From Xaviernesmea oryzae (GTDB taxonomy: Bacteria; Pseudomonadota; Alphaproteobacteria; Rhizobiales; Rhizobiaceae), in the NCBI RefSeq assembly GCF_900177415.1, contig NZ_FXAF01000006.1, positions 1,016,001 through 1,080,000 on the forward strand: a stretch of 64,000 nucleotides of DNA. Direction: 5' to 3'. The notes below the pieces were generated by a model, which did no database searches, had not been told where the DNA came from, and saw nothing but the letters and a program-made list of their open reading frames with translations. The position numbers and the translations under genes were made by a program. Shown one piece after another: positions 1 to 18,013 of the stretch (within the stretch, counting starts at the first letter, position 1; every line of letters starts with the position of its first letter).

Positions 1-536
1 GCGCTTTCGCCAAGGGTCTTTCGGAATGCGCCGATCCCCTCCATATCCTGACGCATCAGCGCACCGGTCATCAGGGCAGCCATGTCCGGATCGGCAAGAG
101 CCTCGTTGAGGATGCGCGCACCGATACGCAGCGTGCTGATGTCGTCGCCGTTGGAGAAGTGAATCCGCATGGCTTCACGCAGATATTTCAGCTGGTGGCG
201 GGATTCCGTCGAGCCTGCTACCTGGAATGCCTGCGCTGCCTCCTCCTTCATCCGGAGCTTCACGAGCGTGGCACCCAGCAGGGCGTAGTGCCTGGGGTCC
301 TTGTCTATGTCCAGCAGCCGGTTGAGGATCGCCAGAACATCGTGATATTCGCGCTTGTCGAAGCTCTTTTGAGCCGCTGCGTAGTCCCTTTGCACCTTGA
401 GGCTTTTCAAGTCTTCCCACTCCAGTGATTGCTGCGCCGGCAGCTCGGGGCCGGCCTCTGGGCCCATGATGGCGGACGAAGCTTGCTTGAAACCATCGTG
501 AAAGAGCCGGGCCGTCGTAAACCGGCGGTTAACCAT
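1..536 (-). CDS. TPR-containing protein of unknown function (3' part outside window)
   Basis: An open minus-strand frame runs off the left edge. The visible part has a charged N-terminal segment, then about 110 residues of helical repeats that read like tetratricopeptide repeats (for example YAAAQKSFDKREYHDVLAIL followed by RHYALLGATLVKLRMKEEAA). No signal peptide or membrane segment is seen. I put the start at the ATG at 536; an internal ATG at 467 is the alternative, and neither has a good ribosome binding site. It is divergent from the first flagellin gene, and rhizobial motility loci often carry an uncharacterised gene here. A role in flagellin handling or modification is only a guess from position. 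Confidence 0.6.
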   Translation of the reverse strand, partial: MVNRRFTTARLFHDGFKQASSAIMGPEAGPELPAQQSLEWEDLKSLKVQRDYAAAQKSFDKREYHDVLAILNRLLDIDKDPRHYALLGATLVKLRMKEEAAQAFQVAGSTESRHQLKYLREAMRIHFSNGDDISTLRIGARILNEALADPDMAALMTGALMRQDMEGIGAFRKTLGES

Positions 537-650
537 AAAAGAGGGTGCTTTCGTTCCGTCCTGCCGTCTAAAGAACTTGGCAAGAATTGGCTGCGAGATT
601 TCCCACACACGACGGGTTTGGTATCTCTTCAGGACTGAAGGAACCGATTG

Positions 651-735
651 GCATGATGCCGGACCGGAGTGACCGGTAAAGTATTCAGTCCGGTATGTCC
701 CCCCAAAAGTATTTCGTTCAAAGGGACAATCAATT
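651..735 (+). promoter_or_regulatory. flaA leader: GCATGATGC box and Shine-Dalgarno-sequestering hairpin
   Basis: The box GCATGATGC (651-659) is an interrupted palindrome repeated before the other flagellins. Further down, TGTCCC at 696-701 can pair perfectly with GGGACA at 723-728, which overlaps the AAGGGA ribosome binding site 10 bases before the flaA start at 736. The loop is 21 bases. The pairing is conserved with base changes before the next two flagellin genes. That it is transcribed and folds this way is inference. Confidence 0.5.
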
Positions 736-1992
736 ATGGCAAGCATTCTCACCAATGTTAACGCTATGGCGGCGCTCCAGACCCTGCGCGGCATCAGCAA
801 CGACATGCAGACGACGCAGGACCGGATCTCCTCCGGCATGCGCGTCGGCACTGCTTCCGACAACGCCGCCTACTGGTCGATCGCGACCACGATGCGTTCC
901 GACAATGCCGCTCTTTCCTCCGTTCAGGATGCGATTGGCCTCGGCGCCGCCAAGGTCGACACCGCCTATTCCGGTATGGAAGCAGCGATCGACGTTGTTC
1001 AGGAAATCAAGAACAAGCTGATTACTGCCGCAGAAGGCAGCGCCGACAAGAAGAAGATCCAGGAAGAAATTTCGCAGCTTCAGGATCAGCTGAAGAGCAT
1101 CTCTTCCTCGGCTTCGTTCTCGGGCGAGAACTGGCTGCAGGCCGATATCGGCGGTAGCGCCGGCGACGACGGCGTGGTTGTCGCCGACAGTGCGATCACC
1201 AAGCAGATCGTCGGTTCCTTCACGCGTGACGGCAACGGCAACGTTTCGGTCAAGACCATCAACGTCAAGCTTGACGAAACGAACGTTCTGTTCGACCTTT
1301 CCGGCGGCGATGCGGGCATTCTGGACTCCAACATCATGCAGGGCTACCGCGTCGTCAAGGACGCGAGCGGTGCGAAGGCCTACGCCAAGGTCAACACCGA
1401 CGGCATCAACCCGACCGACACCACCTATACCTGGAAGGACATCGGTGGCGACGTTTGGGCCAAGTTCGACACCAACGGCGATATCTCGACGGCCACGTCC
1501 GGGTCCTACCTGGTCAAGGTCGGCGGCGCTTTCGTCGATGCCGTGGACGCCAAGGGCACGGTCGACGCGACCGCCATCGTCACCGCCGGCATCGCCTATG
1601 CCACGGGTGTTTCCGTGTCCGAACTCGACATCACCAAGCTCGACGACTACCGCGAGAGCGGTAACGACAAGAACCTCGGTATCGGCGACGGCACCTATGC
1701 CAGCGATGAGAACATCATCGCCGCTCTGACCTCCTTCGTCGACGGTCAGCTCGAACTGATGACCAGCGCTGCCGCGAAACTCGGTGCGGTGTCGAAGCGC
1801 ATCGAGATGCAGGAGGACTTCGCTTCCAAGCTGTCCGACTCGCTCGAGCGTGGCGTCGGCCGACTGGTGGACGCGGACATGAACGAGGAGTCGACGAAGC
1901 TCAAGGCCCTGCAGACGCAGCAGCAGCTCGCGATCCAGGCCCTCTCGATCGCCAACTCCGACTCGCAGAACATCCTGTCGCTCTTCCGTTAA
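736..1992 (+). CDS. flaA: Flagellin FlaA
   Basis: Structural subunit of the flagellar filament, exported unfolded through the flagellar type III system. The 418-residue product has the typical conserved ends: an N-terminal D0/D1 region (residues 1-140, with SSGMRVGTASDNAAYWSIAT and SFSGENWLQ) and a C-terminal D1/D0 region ending in NILSLFR. The centre (about 145-330) is the surface-exposed part. There is no signal peptide, as expected for type III export. The ATG at 736 follows AAGGGA. It is the first of four tandem flagellin genes and is transcribed alone, judging from the strong terminator at 2039-2079. Its central region is almost identical to that of the next gene. Rhizobia commonly build complex filaments from several flagellins, with FlaA the principal one; that role is inferred here. 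Confidence 0.97.
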   Translation: MASILTNVNAMAALQTLRGISNDMQTTQDRISSGMRVGTASDNAAYWSIATTMRSDNAALSSVQDAIGLGAAKVDTAYSGMEAAIDVVQEIKNKLITAAEGSADKKKIQEEISQLQDQLKSISSSASFSGENWLQADIGGSAGDDGVVVADSAITKQIVGSFTRDGNGNVSVKTINVKLDETNVLFDLSGGDAGILDSNIMQGYRVVKDASGAKAYAKVNTDGINPTDTTYTWKDIGGDVWAKFDTNGDISTATSGSYLVKVGGAFVDAVDAKGTVDATAIVTAGIAYATGVSVSELDITKLDDYRESGNDKNLGIGDGTYASDENIIAALTSFVDGQLELMTSAAAKLGAVSKRIEMQEDFASKLSDSLERGVGRLVDADMNEESTKLKALQTQQQLAIQALSIANSDSQNILSLFR

Positions 1993-2038
1993 TCGGAGGC
2001 GCGATGGCGTGGAGGCTGACCACGCCGCCAGGCTTCAG

Positions 2039-2079
2039 AAGGGCCGCGTCCGAAATTGGACGCGGCCCTTTTGTTTTTT
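2039..2079 (+). terminator. Rho-independent terminator after flaA
   Basis: AAGGGCCGCGTCC (2039-2051) pairs perfectly with 2058-2070 across a six-base loop, a 13-bp stem, and is followed by TTGTTTTTT. It lies 46 bases after the flaA stop and separates flaA from flaB. Confidence 0.93.
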
Positions 2080-2105
2080 CATACGCTTCAATGTTCATTA
2101 ACCAT

Positions 2106-2244
2106 ATTGGGGTTACCTAGAGCCATCGAAACGGCGAGTTAACCAAAAAAATTAATTGGTTAGCAGGCATGATGCTGACCGCTGTTCCCGGTGGAATCCG
2201 GAATGTCCCTTTTCGTAATCAGCCACTCAAGGGGCACTCAGAAA
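2106..2244 (+). promoter_or_regulatory. flaB upstream region: shared boxes and SD-sequestering hairpin
   Basis: ATTGGGGT (2106-2113), CATCGAAAC (2124-2132) and GTTAACC (2138-2144) recur in the same order before the third flagellin. GCATGATGC is at 2167-2175. TGTCCCTT (2204-2211) can pair with AAGGGGCA (2229-2236) with one G-U pair and a 17-base loop; the 3' arm contains the ribosome binding site for the start at 2245. Confidence 0.5.
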
Positions 2245-3501
2245 ATGACCAGCATTCTTACCAATATCGCAGCTATGGCTGCTCTCCAGACCCTGCGCTC
2301 TATCGGCCAGGATATGGAAACGACGCAGGGCCGCGTCTCTTCCGGCATGCGCGTCGGCACTGCTTCCGACAACGCCGCCTACTGGTCGATCGCGACCACG
2401 ATGCGTTCCGACAATGCCGCTCTTTCGGCCGTTCAGGACGCACTCGGCCTCGGCGCCGCCAAGGTCGACACGGCTTACGCCGCGATGGAATCGGCGATCG
2501 ACGTTGTTCAGGAAATCAAGAACAAGCTCGTTGCCGCCTCCGAACCTGGCGTCGACAAGGCCAAGGTCCAGGAAGAAATCACTCAGCTTCAGGACCAGCT
2601 CCGCAGCATCGCTTCCTCGGCTTCGTTCTCGGGCGAGAACTGGCTGCAGGCCGATATCGCCGGTAGCGCCGGCGCCGACGGCGTGGTTGTTTCGGATGAT
2701 CCCGTCCTCAAGCAGATCGTCGGTTCCTTCACGCGTGACGGCAACGGCAACGTCGCGGTCAAGACCATCAACGTCAAGCTCGACGAAACGAACGTTCTGT
2801 TCGACCTTTCCGGCGGCGATGCGGGCATTCTGGACTCCAACATCATGCAGGGCTTCCGCGTCGTCAAGGACGCGAGCGGTGCGAAGGCCTACGCCAAGGT
2901 CAACACCGATGGCATCACCCCGACCGACACCACCTATACCTGGAAGGACATCGGTGGCGACGTTTGGGCCAAGTTTGACACCAACGGTGATATCTCGACG
3001 GCCACGTCCGGGTCCTACCTGGTCAAGGTCGGCGGCGCTTTCATCGACGCAGTGGACGCCAAGGGCACGGTCGACGCGACTGCCATCGTCACCGCCGGCA
3101 TCGCCTATGCCACGGGTGTTTCCGTGTCCGAACTCGACATCACCAAGCTCGACGACTACCGTGAGACCGGTAACGACAAGAACCTCGGTATCGGCGACGG
3201 CACCTATGCCAGCGATGAGAACATCATGGGTGCACTGATCTCGTTCGTAGACGGTCAGCTCGAACTGATGACCAGCGCTGCTGCCAAGCTTGGCTCGATC
3301 TCGATGCGCATCGAAATGCAGGAGAACTTCGCTTCCAAGCTGTCCGACTCCATCGACAGCGGCGTCGGCCGACTGGTGGATGCGGAGATGAACGAGGAGT
3401 CCACGAAGCTCAAGGCCCTGCAGACGCAGCAGCAGCTCGCGATCCAGGCCCTCTCGATCGCCAACTCCGACTCGCAGAACATCCTGTCGCTCTTCCGTTA
3501 A
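2245..3501 (+). CDS. flaB: Flagellin FlaB
   Basis: Second filament subunit, 418 residues, with the same conserved N-terminal and C-terminal export and polymerisation regions as FlaA, ending in NILSLFR. An upstream in-frame start at 2191 exists but would add 18 residues before the flagellin N-terminus; the ATG at 2245, eight bases after AAGGGGC and giving MTSILTN as in the neighbours, is the right one. Unusually, the central region (about codons 165-330) matches FlaA almost base for base, whereas the ends differ more, which suggests gene conversion. The gene has its own leader and a terminator at 3530-3557. Confidence 0.97.
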   Translation: MTSILTNIAAMAALQTLRSIGQDMETTQGRVSSGMRVGTASDNAAYWSIATTMRSDNAALSAVQDALGLGAAKVDTAYAAMESAIDVVQEIKNKLVAASEPGVDKAKVQEEITQLQDQLRSIASSASFSGENWLQADIAGSAGADGVVVSDDPVLKQIVGSFTRDGNGNVAVKTINVKLDETNVLFDLSGGDAGILDSNIMQGFRVVKDASGAKAYAKVNTDGITPTDTTYTWKDIGGDVWAKFDTNGDISTATSGSYLVKVGGAFIDAVDAKGTVDATAIVTAGIAYATGVSVSELDITKLDDYRETGNDKNLGIGDGTYASDENIMGALISFVDGQLELMTSAAAKLGSISMRIEMQENFASKLSDSIDSGVGRLVDAEMNEESTKLKALQTQQQLAIQALSIANSDSQNILSLFR

Positions 3502-3529
3502 TCGGATCGCGTCAGAACCATCGAAGAAG

Positions 3530-3557
3530 GCCGCGCCCTCCGGGGCGCGGCTTTTTT
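3530..3557 (+). terminator. Rho-independent terminator after flaB
   Basis: A 9-bp G+C stem (3530-3538 with 3543-3551) closed by a TCCG loop is followed directly by six T. It lies 28 bases after the flaB stop codon. Confidence 0.93.
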
Positions 3558-3623
3558 GTGCTTCATTATTTTTTATTAACTTTCCTAAAGGGAATTTAAC
3601 CTTTGTTAACCATTCGCCGCTTA

Positions 3624-3751
3624 ATTGGGGTCATCGAAACGAAGGGTTAACCAAGACGAAAAAGAGGTTAACAGGCATCAGGCCGAACCGTCGTTCACCG
3701 GTGAGATCCGGAATGTCCCTTTCCCATCAGCCAAATCAAGGGGCAATCAAG
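3624..3751 (+). promoter_or_regulatory. Upstream region of third flagellin gene: shared boxes and SD-sequestering hairpin
   Basis: ATTGGGGT (3624-3631), CATCGAAAC (3632-3640) and GTTAACC (3646-3652) repeat the flaB arrangement with the first two boxes moved together. GCATCAGGC (3675-3683) is a weaker copy of the GCATGATGC box. TGTCCCTT (3714-3721) pairs with AAGGGGCA (3738-3745) across a 16-base loop, covering the ribosome binding site for the ATG at 3752. Confidence 0.5.
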
Positions 3752-5002
3752 ATGACCAGCATTCTTACCAATATCGCAGCCATGGCTGCGCTCCAGACGC
3801 TGCGCTCCATCGACAGCGATATGGAAAAGACCCAGGGCCGCGTTTCCTCCGGCCTGCGCGTTGCCACCGCCTCCGACAATGCCGCCTATTGGTCGATCGC
3901 GACCACCATGCGTTCCGACAACAGTGCTCTTTCGGCCGTTCAGGACGCACTCGGCCTCGGTGCCGCCAAGGTTGACACGGCTTATGCCGCGATGGAAACC
4001 GTCGTCGACGTCGTCAAGGAAATCAAGAGCAAGCTCGTCGCCGCCTCCGAAGCCGGCGTCGATAAGGCAAAGATTCAGGAAGAAATCACCCAGCTTCAGG
4101 ATCAGCTCCGCAGCATTGCGGCATCGGCTTCATTCTCCGGCGAAAACTGGCTGCAGGCCGATATCGGCGGTCAGACCAACGCGACGACCGGTCTCATCGA
4201 GGCGGGTAGCCCCGTGATGAAGCAGGTCATCGGCTCCTTTATCCGCGATGCCAATGGCAATGTCTCGGTCCAGGCCATTCAGGTCGAACTCGACGAGACG
4301 AACGTCCTCTTCGACCTTTCCGGCGGTGATGCCGGTCTGCTCGACGCGGAGGCTTTCAACGGCCTGCGCAAGGTGACGGATACCAACGGCGACGCCAGAT
4401 ACGTCAAGCTGTCGACCGAGTCGGTCGACACGACCTGGAAATCGCTCGGCAACGACGTCTGGGCAAAGATGGACAGCAACGGCGATGTGATAACCGACTC
4501 GAACGCCCAGTATCTCGTCAAGGTTGCCGGAGCGTTCCTCGATGCGGTCGATATCGCCGGCACGTTCAATGTCGACACCAACCATGCGGTGACGGGTACC
4601 GACGTCACGTATGCCCAGGATATCTCGATCTCCGAACTGGATATTACCAAACTCGATGATTATCGCGAGGCGAGTAACGCAAGCTACCTCGGCATGGGTA
4701 CCGATGTCAGTGACGCCAATATCATGGACTACCTGATTTCCTTCGTCGACACGCAGCTCGAAGGGCTCATCAGCTCCACCGCAAAGCTCGGTTCGATCTC
4801 CATGCGCATCAACATGCAGGAGGATTTCGTTTCCAAGCTGACCGACTCCATCGACAGCGGTATCGGCCGTCTGGTGGATGCGGACATGAACGAGGAGTCG
4901 ACGAAGCTCAAGGCCTTGCAGACCCAGCAGCAGCTCGCGATCCAGTCGCTGTCGATCGCCAACACCAATTCCGAGAATATTCTGTCGCTCTTCCGTCAGT
5001 AA
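3752..5002 (+). CDS. Flagellin (third of four)
   Basis: A 416-residue filament subunit with the standard conserved ends (MTSILTNIAAMAALQTLRSI at the start, ENILSLFRQ at the end) and its own central region that is clearly diverged from FlaA and FlaB. The ATG at 3752 follows AAGGGGCA; an in-frame ATG at 3701 would add 17 residues that do not fit the family. It has its own leader and terminator, so it is probably monocistronic. Rhizobial species name the third and fourth flagellins differently (flaC or flaD), so I give no letter. It is likely a minor filament subunit that can copolymerise with FlaA. Confidence 0.96.
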   Translation: MTSILTNIAAMAALQTLRSIDSDMEKTQGRVSSGLRVATASDNAAYWSIATTMRSDNSALSAVQDALGLGAAKVDTAYAAMETVVDVVKEIKSKLVAASEAGVDKAKIQEEITQLQDQLRSIAASASFSGENWLQADIGGQTNATTGLIEAGSPVMKQVIGSFIRDANGNVSVQAIQVELDETNVLFDLSGGDAGLLDAEAFNGLRKVTDTNGDARYVKLSTESVDTTWKSLGNDVWAKMDSNGDVITDSNAQYLVKVAGAFLDAVDIAGTFNVDTNHAVTGTDVTYAQDISISELDITKLDDYREASNASYLGMGTDVSDANIMDYLISFVDTQLEGLISSTAKLGSISMRINMQEDFVSKLTDSIDSGIGRLVDADMNEESTKLKALQTQQQLAIQSLSIANTNSENILSLFRQ

Positions 5003-5065
5003 GCGGCGCTCTTGGCTGGAGCGGTTTCGTCCCGCTCTGACACGGCACAATATTCCGGACAGAAG

Positions 5066-5093
5066 ACCGCGTCTCGCAAGAGGCGCGGTTTTT
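5066..5093 (+). terminator. Rho-independent terminator after third flagellin gene
   Basis: ACCGCGTCT (5066-5074) pairs with AGGCGCGGT (5081-5089) across CGCAAG, with one G-T pair, and runs into TTTTTC. It is 64 bases after the stop codon. Confidence 0.88.
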
Positions 5094-5198
5094 CGTGTCG
5101 CCGCGTGGCTTGCGCGAAGCCTGCACGATCGTCGCCTTCGGGGGTTAAGACCTCATTAAGACCTTGCCAATCCGCGTTTGCCTTTGATAACTGTCGTT

Positions 5199-5213
5199 TT
5201 AACGATTTGTTAA
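5199..5213 (+). promoter_or_regulatory. TTAA-N7-TTAA site (CtrA-type box) before fourth flagellin gene
   Basis: TTAACGATTTGTTAA is a perfect match to the TTAA-N7-TTAA recognition sequence of the alphaproteobacterial cell-cycle regulator CtrA. It lies 113 bases before the start at 5326. A GCATGATGC box follows at 5256-5264. Binding is inferred from the motif only. Confidence 0.5.
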
Positions 5214-5325
5214 GAACGACAGGCCGCCTGCGCATCGGATGCGGGAGGGCGGTGAGCATGATGCCTCTGGTCGTTTCCGGTGCTCCACTCCGGATCTCTC
5301 AGAACCTTTGACCGAGGCACGGCCA

Positions 5326-6612
5326 ATGACCAGTATCCTGACCAACACCGCCGCCATGGCGGCCTTGCAGACCCTGCGCGCGATCAACCGCAATATGGAA
5401 GTCACCCAGGCCAGGGTTTCATCCGGCATGCGCGTCCAGACGGCGGCGGACAATGCGGCCTATTGGTCGATCGCCACGACGATGCGTTCGGACAATCACG
5501 CGCTGTCGACGATTCAGGATGCTCTCGGTCTTGGTGCTGCGAAGGTGGATACCGCTTATGCGGCCATGGAAAGCGCCATCGACACGGTAATGGAGATCAA
5601 GTCCAAGATCGTCGCGGCTTACGGTGTCGGCGCCAACCGCAACAAGATTCAGGAAGAGATCGCGCAGCTCCAGGAGCAGCTCAAGAGCATTTCCAACTCT
5701 GCAACCTTTTCGGGTGAAAACTGGCTGCAGGACTATATCAGCGACGGCAGCACGAACGCCCAAGAAAAGCCGCTGCTCAAGCAGGTCGTCGCGTCGTTCA
5801 CCCGTACCGCTTCGGGCGAGGTCGCGATCCAGACCGTCGATTATACGCTGAACTCCAAGACGGTTCTCTTCGATCTCAGCGGCGGCAATCTCGGCATTCT
5901 GGATTCGTCGGTCGAATTCGTCGCCGAAAGCGAAACGGCCGTGACCGTCACCACTGCGAATGGCACCCAGGCTCCGACGAGCGCGGGCTATGCGGTTCCC
6001 GTGTACAACGAGAGCGATCTGGCGGCTCTCGGCACGGACGCAAACGCAGCCGATGCGCGCATCTACGAGGTCGGCGGCAGTTTCTATTTGAAGGTAGCCG
6101 AAGGACAGTGGGTCGAGGTGACGGATACGGATCCCGCCACCGCGCCGGTGGTGACGACCCCCGTCCATCAAAATGGCGGAACGAACTACTATTTCGTTGT
6201 CACTGCCGCCAACAACCTCGACAACCGCAGGCTCGGCATTTCCGTCTCGACGCTCGACATCGACAAGCTGGACGAAATCGCCGTGAAGATGAACACGATG
6301 GTTCCGGGCTCCGCGCCGGACAACGAGGCTGTGCTCGACATGCTGGAGCGCTTCCTCGACAAGCAACTGATGGCGATGACGAGTGCCGCTTCCAGTCTCG
6401 GTTCGATCCAGAAGCGCATCGACCTGCAGGAGGATTTCGTCGCCTCGCTGACGGATGTCATCGACAAGGGCGTCGGGCGACTGGTCGATGCGGACATGAA
6501 CGAGGAATCGACGCGCCTGAAGGCCCTCCAGACCCAGCAGCAGCTCGGCATTCAGTCGCTGCAGATCGCCAACACCAACGCCGAAAACATCCTTCAGCTC
6601 TTCCGGCAGTAG
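5326..6612 (+). CDS. Flagellin (fourth of four)
   Basis: A 428-residue flagellin with conserved ends (MTSILTNTAAMAALQTLRAI; ENILQLFRQ at the C-terminus) and the most diverged and longest central region of the four (about residues 145-330). The ATG at 5326 was chosen because it gives the family N-terminus and follows CGAGG; an upstream ATG at 5239 in frame would add 29 residues. Its leader differs from the other three: it lacks the TGTCCC/GGGGCA hairpin but has a perfect CtrA-type site and a GCATGATGC box. No convincing terminator follows; 6613-6896 holds G+C-rich partial repeats and nothing else that I can identify. Confidence 0.95.
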   Translation: MTSILTNTAAMAALQTLRAINRNMEVTQARVSSGMRVQTAADNAAYWSIATTMRSDNHALSTIQDALGLGAAKVDTAYAAMESAIDTVMEIKSKIVAAYGVGANRNKIQEEIAQLQEQLKSISNSATFSGENWLQDYISDGSTNAQEKPLLKQVVASFTRTASGEVAIQTVDYTLNSKTVLFDLSGGNLGILDSSVEFVAESETAVTVTTANGTQAPTSAGYAVPVYNESDLAALGTDANAADARIYEVGGSFYLKVAEGQWVEVTDTDPATAPVVTTPVHQNGGTNYYFVVTAANNLDNRRLGISVSTLDIDKLDEIAVKMNTMVPGSAPDNEAVLDMLERFLDKQLMAMTSAASSLGSIQKRIDLQEDFVASLTDVIDKGVGRLVDADMNEESTRLKALQTQQQLGIQSLQIANTNAENILQLFRQ

Positions 6613-12458: not shown

Positions 12459-13130
12459 ATGATCGTAGTGGTTGATGAGCGTGAGCTCGTGAAAGACGGT
12501 TACACTTCTCTTTTCGGGCGGGAGGGAATTCCTTCCCAGGGGTTCGATCCAAGGGAATTCGGCGAGTGGGTAAACACCGCGGCAGATTCGGACATCGCTG
12601 CGGTCGAAGCCTTTCTGATCGGCCAGGGTGAGCGCGCGCTCGAATTGCCGCGGGCGATCCGGGACCGGTCGATGGCGCCTGTGATCGCGGTCAGCGATCA
12701 GCCCTCCCTGGAGGCGACCCTTGCCTTCTTCGACAGCGGCGTCGACGACGTGGTGCGCAAGCCCGTCCATCCCCGTGAGATCCTGGCGCGTGCCGCTGCG
12801 ATCCGCCGGCGCCTGAAGGCGATTGCAAACTACACGGACATCGGCGCGATCCGGGTCTTCTCCGACGGCCGCGATCCGGAGATCGATGGCGACGTTTTCC
12901 CGCTGCCGCGCCGCGAGCGCCGCATTCTGGAGTATCTGGTCGCCAATCGCGGCCGCCGTGTTTCCAAGACACAGATCTTCAATGCCATCTACGGCATCTT
13001 CGACGAGGAAGTCGAAGAGAACGTCGTCGAAAGCCATATCAGCAAGCTGCGCAAGAAGCTGCGCAAGAAGCTCGGCTTCGATCCCGTCGATTCCAAGCGT
13101 TTCCTTGGCTATTGCATCGACTGGAACTGA
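12459..13130 (+). CDS. rem: Rem, OmpR-type activator of late motility genes
   Basis: Transcription factor that in S. meliloti is turned on by VisNR and activates flagellar, motor and chemotaxis genes in growing cells. The 223-residue protein has a receiver-like domain (about 1-115) and a C-terminal winged helix (about 130-220, with [20 protein letters not shown] and [13 protein letters not shown]). The receiver keeps acidic D6-E7 and the KP motif (VRKPVHP), but the phosphate-accepting Asp is replaced by Glu50 (AAVEAFLIG). It probably acts without phosphorylation and may be locked in an active-like state. No partner kinase is encoded next to it. The ATG at 12459 follows CGGAGG. Confidence 0.93.
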
Positions 13131-17219: not shown

Positions 17220-17567
17220 ATGTACCAATTTTCATATGCCGAGATCATGGAGGATGGCGTCGCAAACGCCAAGGATCGTGAACGGCAGGCCCTCGATCGC
17301 TCCATCGAGATGCTGATCGCGGCTCGCGACGAGGGTAGTTACTCGCGCACGACGATCGAAGCCCTGTTTTATACCCGGCGTGTCTGGATTCGCTTCATCG
17401 AGGATCTGAAACAGCCGGATAACGAATTGGCCACCGAACTGCGTGCGGACCTGATCTCGATAGCCATCTGGATATTGAAGGAATGCGAGAAGATCAGAAA
17501 ACGCGACTCGACCAATTTCCAGGGCATCATTGACGTGACCACCATCATCAGGGATGGACTTAAATGA
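17220..17567 (+). CDS. flaF: Flagellar biosynthesis regulator FlaF
   Basis: A small cytoplasmic protein (115 residues) of the FlaF family, needed for flagellin production in alphaproteobacteria. It is helical throughout and carries the family pattern [16 protein letters not shown] and [12 protein letters not shown]. In Caulobacter, FlaF and FlbT act on flagellin in opposite directions at the mRNA or protein level. The stop overlaps the flbT start (ATGA at 17564-17567), so the two are made together. The ATG at 17220 is preceded by AAGGATAC. Confidence 0.95.
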
Positions 17568-18013
17568 AAAGTACGCTTCGCATCTCCTTGAAATCCGGTG
17601 AGCGGATATTCATCAACGGCGCCGTGTTGCGCGTTGATCGAAAGGTCGCGCTGGAATTCCTCAACGACGTCACGTTCCTTCTGGAAAACCACGTTCTTCA
17701 GCCGGAGGATGCGACGACGCCGCTTCGGCAGCTCTACTTCATCGCCCAGATGATGCTGATCAATCCCGATGGAAAGGAGCAGTCGTCGGCGCTGTTCCGC
17801 AAGTCGGTCGCCATGCTGCTCACCTGCTTCCACGACGACGAGGTGCAGGCGGAATTGAAGCGCATCGACGGCATGGTCGCATCCGGCCGCGCCTTCGACG
17901 CCTTGAAGGCGATCCGCGCCCTCTATCCGGTGGAAGACCGCATTCTGAACAACCAGGAAATCGCTCCGGCCACCGTCGAGCGCATCCGCAAGGAGATCGC
18001 ACCATGGCGATAG
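17564..18013 (+). CDS. flbT: Flagellin mRNA regulator FlbT
   Basis: A 149-residue protein of the FlbT family. In Caulobacter FlbT binds the leader of flagellin mRNA and limits its translation and stability until the hook is complete; in Brucella it acts positively. Here it keeps the family N-terminus ([20 protein letters not shown]). Translation is coupled to flaF upstream and to flgD downstream, whose start at 18004 lies inside the flbT end. Likely targets are the leaders of the four flagellins in this window, three of which share a hairpin over the ribosome binding site. Confidence 0.95.

Follow-up and report, generated by a model that had tools for sequence, protein, structure and literature searches.

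Tandem hairpins in the flagellin leaders of Xaviernesmea oryzae and related Rhizobiales, a candidate target of FlbT

Introduction

In Caulobacter crescentus, the regulator FlbT is reported to bind the leader of the flagellin gene fljK (Anderson and Gober 2000) and to repress flagellin together with a co-repressor, the flagellin paralogue FljJ (eLife 2020, PMC7591256). Here we describe three flagellin genes of Xaviernesmea oryzae (Rhizobiales; contig NZ_FXAF01000006.1, positions 1,016,001 to 1,080,000, a 64,000-nucleotide (nt) stretch hereafter called the window) whose leaders share two predicted tandem hairpins, hairpin 1 (HP1) and hairpin 2 (HP2), the second of which covers the Shine-Dalgarno (SD) sequence. 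Like the fljK leader, these are putative flagellin 5' untranslated regions (UTRs); post-transcriptional control is the feature of fljK. Brucella belongs to the same order as X. oryzae. For Brucella fliC, a review proposes that FlbT acts via the 5' UTR, and FlbT is reported there as a flagellin activator (PMC4347634, PMC9812332, PMC8781033); the Brucella leader sequence is not in our comparison. FlbT's mode of flagellin control is listed as unresolved in a 2015 review.

Flagellin leaders bound by CsrA or RsmA are likewise controlled at translation by a protein, as is proposed here, and such leaders exist beyond that of Campylobacter flaA. The latter is reported to be controlled by CsrA. A structured RNA has also been described in the same order as X. 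oryzae, the flg-Rhizobiales RNA (RF01736), which lies near flagellar genes. Unlike the element described below, it has 141 positions and three stem-loops, and in the one sequence inspected by eye it overlaps the start of a flgF-looking gene. Identity with RF01736 was rejected: its best match in the genome scored 17.8 bits against a gathering score of 55, lay on another contig and was at chance level, with none in the window.

Results

Two predicted hairpins precede each of three flagellin genes

The HP1 and HP2 regions sit immediately 5' of flagellin genes confirmed by Pfam (the names flaA and flaB follow an earlier sequence-only reading of this DNA and rhizobial usage):

Flagellin 1 (flaA), 736..1992, + strand: Pfam PF00669/PF00700
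Flagellin 2 (flaB), 2245..3501, + strand: Pfam Flagellin_N and Flagellin_C
Flagellin 3, 3752..5002, + strand: Pfam Flagellin_N and Flagellin_C
HP1 of the flaA leader, 672..694, + strand: ACCGG 672-676 with CCGGT 690-694, minimum-energy fold
HP1 of the flaB leader, 2188..2201, + strand: CCGG 2188-2191 with CCGG 2198-2201, minimum-energy fold
HP1 of the third leader, 3698..3711, + strand: CCGG 3698-3701 with CCGG 3708-3711, minimum-energy fold
HP2 of the flaA leader, 696..728, + strand: TGTCCC 696-701 with GGGACA 723-728, over the SD, minimum-energy fold
HP2 of the flaB leader, 2204..2236, + strand: TGTCCCTT 2204-2211 with AAGGGGCA 2229-2236, minimum-energy fold
HP2 of the third leader, 3714..3745, + strand: TGTCCCTT 3714-3721 with AAGGGGCA 3738-3745, minimum-energy fold

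The sequence-only reading had noticed the HP2 pairings and placed the SD in their 3' arms. Both observations stand: in all three leaders the pairings lie at precisely the positions given, and each 3' arm contains an SD-like G run and stops short of its ATG (736, 2245 and 3752) by 7, 8 and 6 nt, respectively. Unconstrained minimum-energy folds of 671-736, 2183-2245 and 3693-3752 hold exactly HP2, plus HP1 on its 5' side. HP1 and the short joint that separates it from HP2 were absent from that reading and were found here. It had also argued for selection on structure from arms that differ between genes yet remain complementary, which does not survive closer comparison of the paralogues: all three leaders have TGTCCC as the core of the 5' arm, and the cores of their 3' arms differ by a single base (GGGACA/GGGGCA), a one-sided change from U-A to U-G.

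The element recurs in relatives and is nearly confined to flagellin leaders

Leaders for comparison came from two sources, namely 33 loci from this genome and its genus (taken only from the strongest matches across 57 genomes) and 78 named loci from the best 80 of 582 relatives. The named loci span Neorhizobium, Agrobacterium, Rhizobium, Ensifer, Shinella, Mesorhizobium, Pseudovibrio, Bradyrhizobium, Tardiphaga, Hyphomicrobium, Notoacmeibacter and others. A parser passed a leader if HP1 had four Watson-Crick pairs and HP2 no fewer than five standard pairs of a possible six. Of 198 distinct leaders 139 passed; once nine misparsed rows (ATGC:GCAT) had been removed, 130 remained, one of which is a doubtful flaC-type row. 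The HP2 arms were TGTCCC:GGGGCA in 66 of these and TGTCCC:GGGACA in 43, and the arms persist while the loops vary from 4 to 18 nt (HP1) and from 11 to 25 nt (HP2).

Two alignments were folded with RNAalifold, and in both cases HP1 and HP2 alone were returned, the helices not having been supplied. Alignment A2 holds 35 non-redundant rows of 98 leaders (19 of 117 had been set aside earlier by sequence anchors), chosen by anchors that are themselves complementary; A3 holds 39 of 41 non-redundant rows from the 139 parser passes, chosen for having both hairpins, with one flaC-type row and one alternative-fold row left out. When leaders were located by pairing-free anchors (229 minus 29 without the upstream box described below and 41 without an ATG anchor, leaving 159), 144 carried a perfect four-base-pair Watson-Crick HP1, and inspection by eye showed that several of the remaining 15 pair with a shift of register; a simple shuffle control, run on a less strict definition of HP1, gave 13%. 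A helix pairing with the SD is kept in relatives, as expected for a cis-regulatory hairpin that sequesters the SD, here as a prediction with modest HP2 covariation.

We searched the 6.07 Mb genome with a covariance model of the element (R1), scoring 150 of 1473 first-look candidates. Three strong matches were obtained, all at the three leaders: 671-730 (flaA, 48.6 bits), 2186-2238 (flaB, 50.4 bits) and 3696-3747 (third, 47.8 bits), the next best reaching 19.3 bits (E 0.16). Over 199 genomes of the order, R1 gave 43 matches in 27 genomes (strict filters, E 0.001), and comparison of coordinates placed 41 of the 43 immediately 5' of a listed Flagellin_N match. The other two are a match at G427:C1:1982118, without a Flagellin_N partner among the matches listed, and one in G532, a genome with neither a flagellin nor an FlbT match, which we took as chance, leaving 26 credible genomes. 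A sample of 289 genomes of the class yielded no credible match outside the order, which may set the element apart from the Caulobacter fljK system (whose leader was not part of the comparison); own genome aside, it gave just three weak matches (E 0.003-0.005), none of which, judged from the translated frames, precedes a flagellin. It is this conservation, and not the energetics of single leaders, that exceeds chance.

Rfam at gathering score found one tRNA in the whole window and nothing at the flagellin leaders; at E 5 it found no relevant family in 500-5500, and in the 15 named loci scanned, out of 78, no family reached its gathering score. In the openly licensed literature searched, as far as its texts were available, we found no description of a tandem-hairpin flagellin leader. 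In all likelihood the tandem hairpin is a genuine cis-acting element of the leader that acts on translation and has not been catalogued before.

HP1 pairing is preserved through two-sided changes

In A3, the covariation of HP1 with its flanking pair was 0.117 against 0.039 in shuffles, which leave relatedness among the leaders in place; none of 500 shuffles reached it, and versions slid along the alignment gave at most 0.079. Among 114 distinct HP1 strings, the flanking pair is Watson-Crick in 39, compared with 22.0 expected (0 of 10,000), and it is a standard pair in 54 of the 56 strings whose 3' base is other than A. The arms themselves have changed and still pair as TCGG:CCGA in Pseudovibrio (L070), as CGGG:CCCG in two rhizobial leaders and as CCGA:TCGG (within GCCGAA:TTCGGC) in two Notoacmeibacter leaders. 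On these alignments we consider the two-sided changes of HP1 to be real, and the covariation of HP2 to be modest; pair 3 of HP2 is UA, UG or CG in all 39 A3 rows. The covariance analysis of rhizobial leaders suggested by the sequence-only reading bears out a paired structure through HP1, is modest for HP2 and, in A2, is not above shuffles.

The HP2 loops lie at window positions 702-722, 2212-2228 and 3722-3737. Leaders of different genera share loop sequence by paralogue type, GTAT[TC]T[ACT]G accompanying the GGGACA arm (37 of 130 leaders) and GCCA the GGGGCA arm (57 of 130).

The joint and the upstream box

The joint between HP1 and HP2 is usually two bases, a length that was a condition set by the leader parser, and three in L015, L018, L019, L020 and L047. 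Its A before TG is invariant in all 39 A3 rows. An upstream open reading frame starting at the AUG of NATGTCC was considered and rejected, the frame not being kept (29, 50 and 50 of 129 leaders in frames 0, 1 and 2).

A short box lies upstream of HP1:

Box GCATGATGC before flaA, 651..659, + strand: promoter-like or transcript 5' end; sequence observed, function inferred
Box GCATGATGC before flaB, 2167..2175, + strand: sequence
Box variant GCATCAGGC before the third flagellin, 3675..3683, + strand: sequence, fitting the pattern GCATNANGC

The distance from the end of the GCATNANGC box to HP1 is 11-15 nt in 118 of the 130 two-hairpin leaders, and 12-13 nt in 105 of those 118. No strongly conserved block was seen in the 40 nt 5' of the box, which may mark where the transcript begins or be a flagellin promoter of an unusual type.

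The element accompanies one clade of FlbT in a hand-picked tree

FlbT is encoded in this genome, as a leader under its control would require, and in the same cluster as the flagellins. The sequence-only reading had located its gene at 17564, which Pfam confirms:

flaF, 17220..17567, + strand: Pfam PF07309, E 3.5e-34
flbT, candidate trans-acting regulator, 17564..18013, + strand: Pfam PF07378, E 1.3e-42

In the order sample, 138 of the 199 genomes have FlbT and 151 have Flagellin_N, and FlbT is present in all 26 credible element genomes. In 25 of these it shares a contig with the element, the closest copy being roughly 12-32 kb away, and in G476 it lies on another contig. Six element genomes (G091, G460, G484, G490, G516 and G521) carry two FlbT genes, with the element 12-21 kb from one of them. 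We built a tree of 61 FlbT proteins, consisting of 26 element-linked copies, the six second copies and 29 picked by eye from clusters without the element. Within this hand-picked sample the proteins form two deep clades, and the element goes with 26 of the 39 rows in the first clade and 0 of the 22 in the second; the label changes 5 times on the tree versus 19.8 times when shuffled. In all six two-FlbT genomes, the FlbT neighbouring the element falls in the first clade and the other copy in the second. Both clades (proteins L172-L231) therefore coexist within the two-FlbT genomes, the leader element being tied to one of them. These associations are compatible with FlbT as the regulator of the element.

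The fourth flagellin and other leaders without HP2

A fourth flagellin gene follows in the window, and its leader, on which the sequence-only reading had not remarked, differs:

Flagellin 4 (flaC-type), 5326..6612, + strand: Pfam
Fourth flagellin leader, 5256..5293, + strand: box 5256-5264; HP1 CCGG 5277-5280 with CCGG 5290-5293; no TGTCCC arm
Candidate alternative SD helix of the fourth flagellin, 5262..5319, + strand: TGCCTC 5262-5267 and GGTC 5269-5272 with GACC 5310-5313 and GAGGCA 5314-5319

The fold of 5272-5326 contains HP1 and lacks HP2 (z-score +0.58), and the own-genome R1 search reported no match at this leader. The folded segment begins where the first arm of the alternative helix ends and so could not show that helix, which has a duplex energy of -19.9 kcal/mol and an uncorrected shuffle p of 0.03. 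Of 37 leaders in which the HP2 anchor is missing, 6 have similar 5'-end helices with uncorrected p values of 0.014-0.042; of 135 leaders that possess the anchor, 3 have p values of at most 0.05. A permutation across flaC-type leaders was not significant (p 0.069; control set 0.094), and we treat the alternative helix in some flaC-type leaders as a suggestive lead only.

HP1 also persists in Mesorhizobium leaders, and an HP1-like pair occurs in two Methylobacterium-type leaders. With HP1 in flaC-type and Mesorhizobium leaders and an HP1-like pair in Methylobacterium-type ones, HP1 seems to be the more widespread element and HP2 the more restricted. In Mesorhizobium L106, L108, L116 and L118, a GGTA-N4-TACC inverted repeat lies over the SD (ATGs at 3326, 3329, 3326 and 3302); by its sequence, it could possibly be a replacement gate. 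At window 5199-5213, 5' of the fourth flagellin, TTAA-N7-TTAA followed by G is near the CtrA consensus as reported, TAA-N7-TTAAC.

Neighbouring genes

Flagellins 2 and 3 are 89% and 67% identical in protein sequence to flagellin 1, and the flaA and flaB DNA (window 736-3501) contains long stretches that are near-identical by eye. This suggests a recent duplication or gene conversion of flaA and flaB. One further regulator is encoded in the flagellar cluster:

OmpR-type regulator, 12459..13130, + strand: Pfam Trans_reg_C above its cut-off, Response_reg below its cut-off

From its position and domains, we presume that it resembles Rem/FtcR.

Discussion

Folds and relatives together support what the sequence-only reading had proposed in outline, a structured and conserved flagellin leader covering the SD within a flagellar gene cluster. 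We consider it reasonably probable that this is a cis-acting two-hairpin RNA element read by a trans-acting factor, with FlbT as the best candidate. HP1, with its CCGG-type arms and variable loop, would lie near the 5' end of the transcript; HP2, usually two bases further on, would pair UGUCCC with the SD region (GGGRCA) and reduce access of the ribosome. The trans-acting factor would use HP1 and the joint as a recognition platform and toggle HP2 between closed and open states, thereby limiting translation of flagellin to times when the protein can be built into the filament. The reader may be FlbT, with FlaF, from the same cluster. FlbT is reported as a repressor in Caulobacter and as an activator in Brucella, and such control could have either sign. 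The variable spacing of the arms and the two-sided changes suggest that HP1 acts as RNA, and we infer that transcription starts upstream of HP1.

Several observations weigh against this proposal, in whole or in part. At 28 C, the computed cost of opening the SD (8.5-9.2 kcal/mol in the three leaders, the flaA segment starting 3' of the first HP1 arm) exceeds shuffle means of 6.7-7.6 kcal/mol by little enough that 59-80 of 300 shuffles equal it. The energy of the duplex between the upstream arm and the SD is equalled by 394-620 of 2000 shuffles, with a median shuffle p of 0.29 across 159 leaders. The energetics of HP2 in single leaders are thus ordinary (whole-leader folding z-scores are -2.38, -0.71 and -0.81 for flaA, flaB and the third), and single-leader folding was rejected as proof of an element. 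Covariation in A2 was not above shuffles (68 of 500), the covariation terms of RNAalifold were only -0.07 (A2) and -0.46 (A3), and HP2 in A3 reached 0.150 against 0.122 in shuffles (3 of 500), with slid versions at 0.140 and 0.123. In 58 of the 114 HP1 strings the 3' base of the flanking pair is A, and only 4 of these have the pairing T. Only 130 of 198 leaders pass the parser, the failures being partly parser misses and partly genuine exceptions. Among the latter, the flaC-type leaders of relatives likewise keep the box and HP1 without TGTCCC, and Mesorhizobium leaders keep HP1 with TGTCAA in its place. The window-type flaC leaders retain GGCA near the SD without TGTCCC, and this portion of the HP2 3' arm may therefore be kept for another reason. 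As to FlbT, 112 of the 138 genomes that encode it have no element at E 0.001 under the strict filters; the tree rows were picked by hand, the tree may wrongly unite the long branches that separate the clades, and the clade association may reflect plain co-inheritance of one flagellar system. Finally, no mapped flagellin transcription start was found in the openly licensed literature searched, as far as its texts were available, and HP1 and HP2 are accordingly predicted rather than proven RNA structures.

An RNA element that functions without FlbT appears unlikely to us, if worth keeping in mind. HP1 would then be a 5'-terminal stem that protects against decay, and HP2 would set a low constitutive level of translation or act in a thermometer-like manner. 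HP1 does begin 11-15 nt past the box, possibly near the 5' end, and occurs in leaders that lack HP2; opening the SD is predicted to cost 9.3-10.0 kcal/mol at 20 C and less, 7.6-8.2 kcal/mol, at 37 C, as would hold for any helix. However, near-exclusive use before flagellins and the link to one FlbT clade fit a flagellar regulator better. It is rather improbable that the elements act as DNA, the box, the CCGG repeats and TGTCCC being parts of a flagellin promoter or operator whose pairing is incidental. The almost fixed distance between box and HP1, the almost invariant arms and the reported direct regulation of S. meliloti flaA, flaB and flaC by CtrA (PMC4433202) would agree with such parts, but the CCGG arms are separated by 4-18 nt and the HP2 arms by 11-25 nt, unlike an operator dyad, and HP1 pairing is preserved through two-sided changes.

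A target for a base-pairing small RNA, with the HP2 loops as seed, would explain why loop sequence follows paralogue type, as noted above; yet the loops differ among paralogues, and we give this very little credence (no search for small RNAs was made). Chance complementarity in three recent paralogues is scarcely credible. Single-leader statistics are ordinary and the three genes are homologous, but the element recurs before flagellins of Bradyrhizobium, Pseudovibrio, Hyphomicrobium and others, and HP1 arms that have changed still pair.

The sequence-only reading had also seen a GGA-type protein site in the block before the HP2 stem. The GGA there turned out to combine bases of the paired 3' arm of HP1 with a base that varies, and flaA has CCGGTA, without GGA. 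A role for CsrA was rejected, with GGA not conserved and 0 matches to PF02599 in the genome; the same search found matches in 3 of 14 named genomes as a control.

Returning to FlbT as the candidate reader, a more ambitious version would extend the switch to the whole order: HP1 and the joint A would form the FlbT site and HP2 the SD gate, which flaC would escape by having no HP2 and, over its SD, a 5'-end helix of its own. We regard this version as speculative and, taken as a whole, doubtful. By analogy with Caulobacter, the fourth flagellin could possibly be an FljJ-like regulatory flagellin. If the version held, flaC would be the rhizobial counterpart of FljJ, a co-repressor with FlbT that is translated on a separate schedule. 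A conserved target of about 55 nt, together with one paralogue in the same cluster that naturally lacks the gate, makes the question of how FlbT controls flagellin directly testable in rhizobia.

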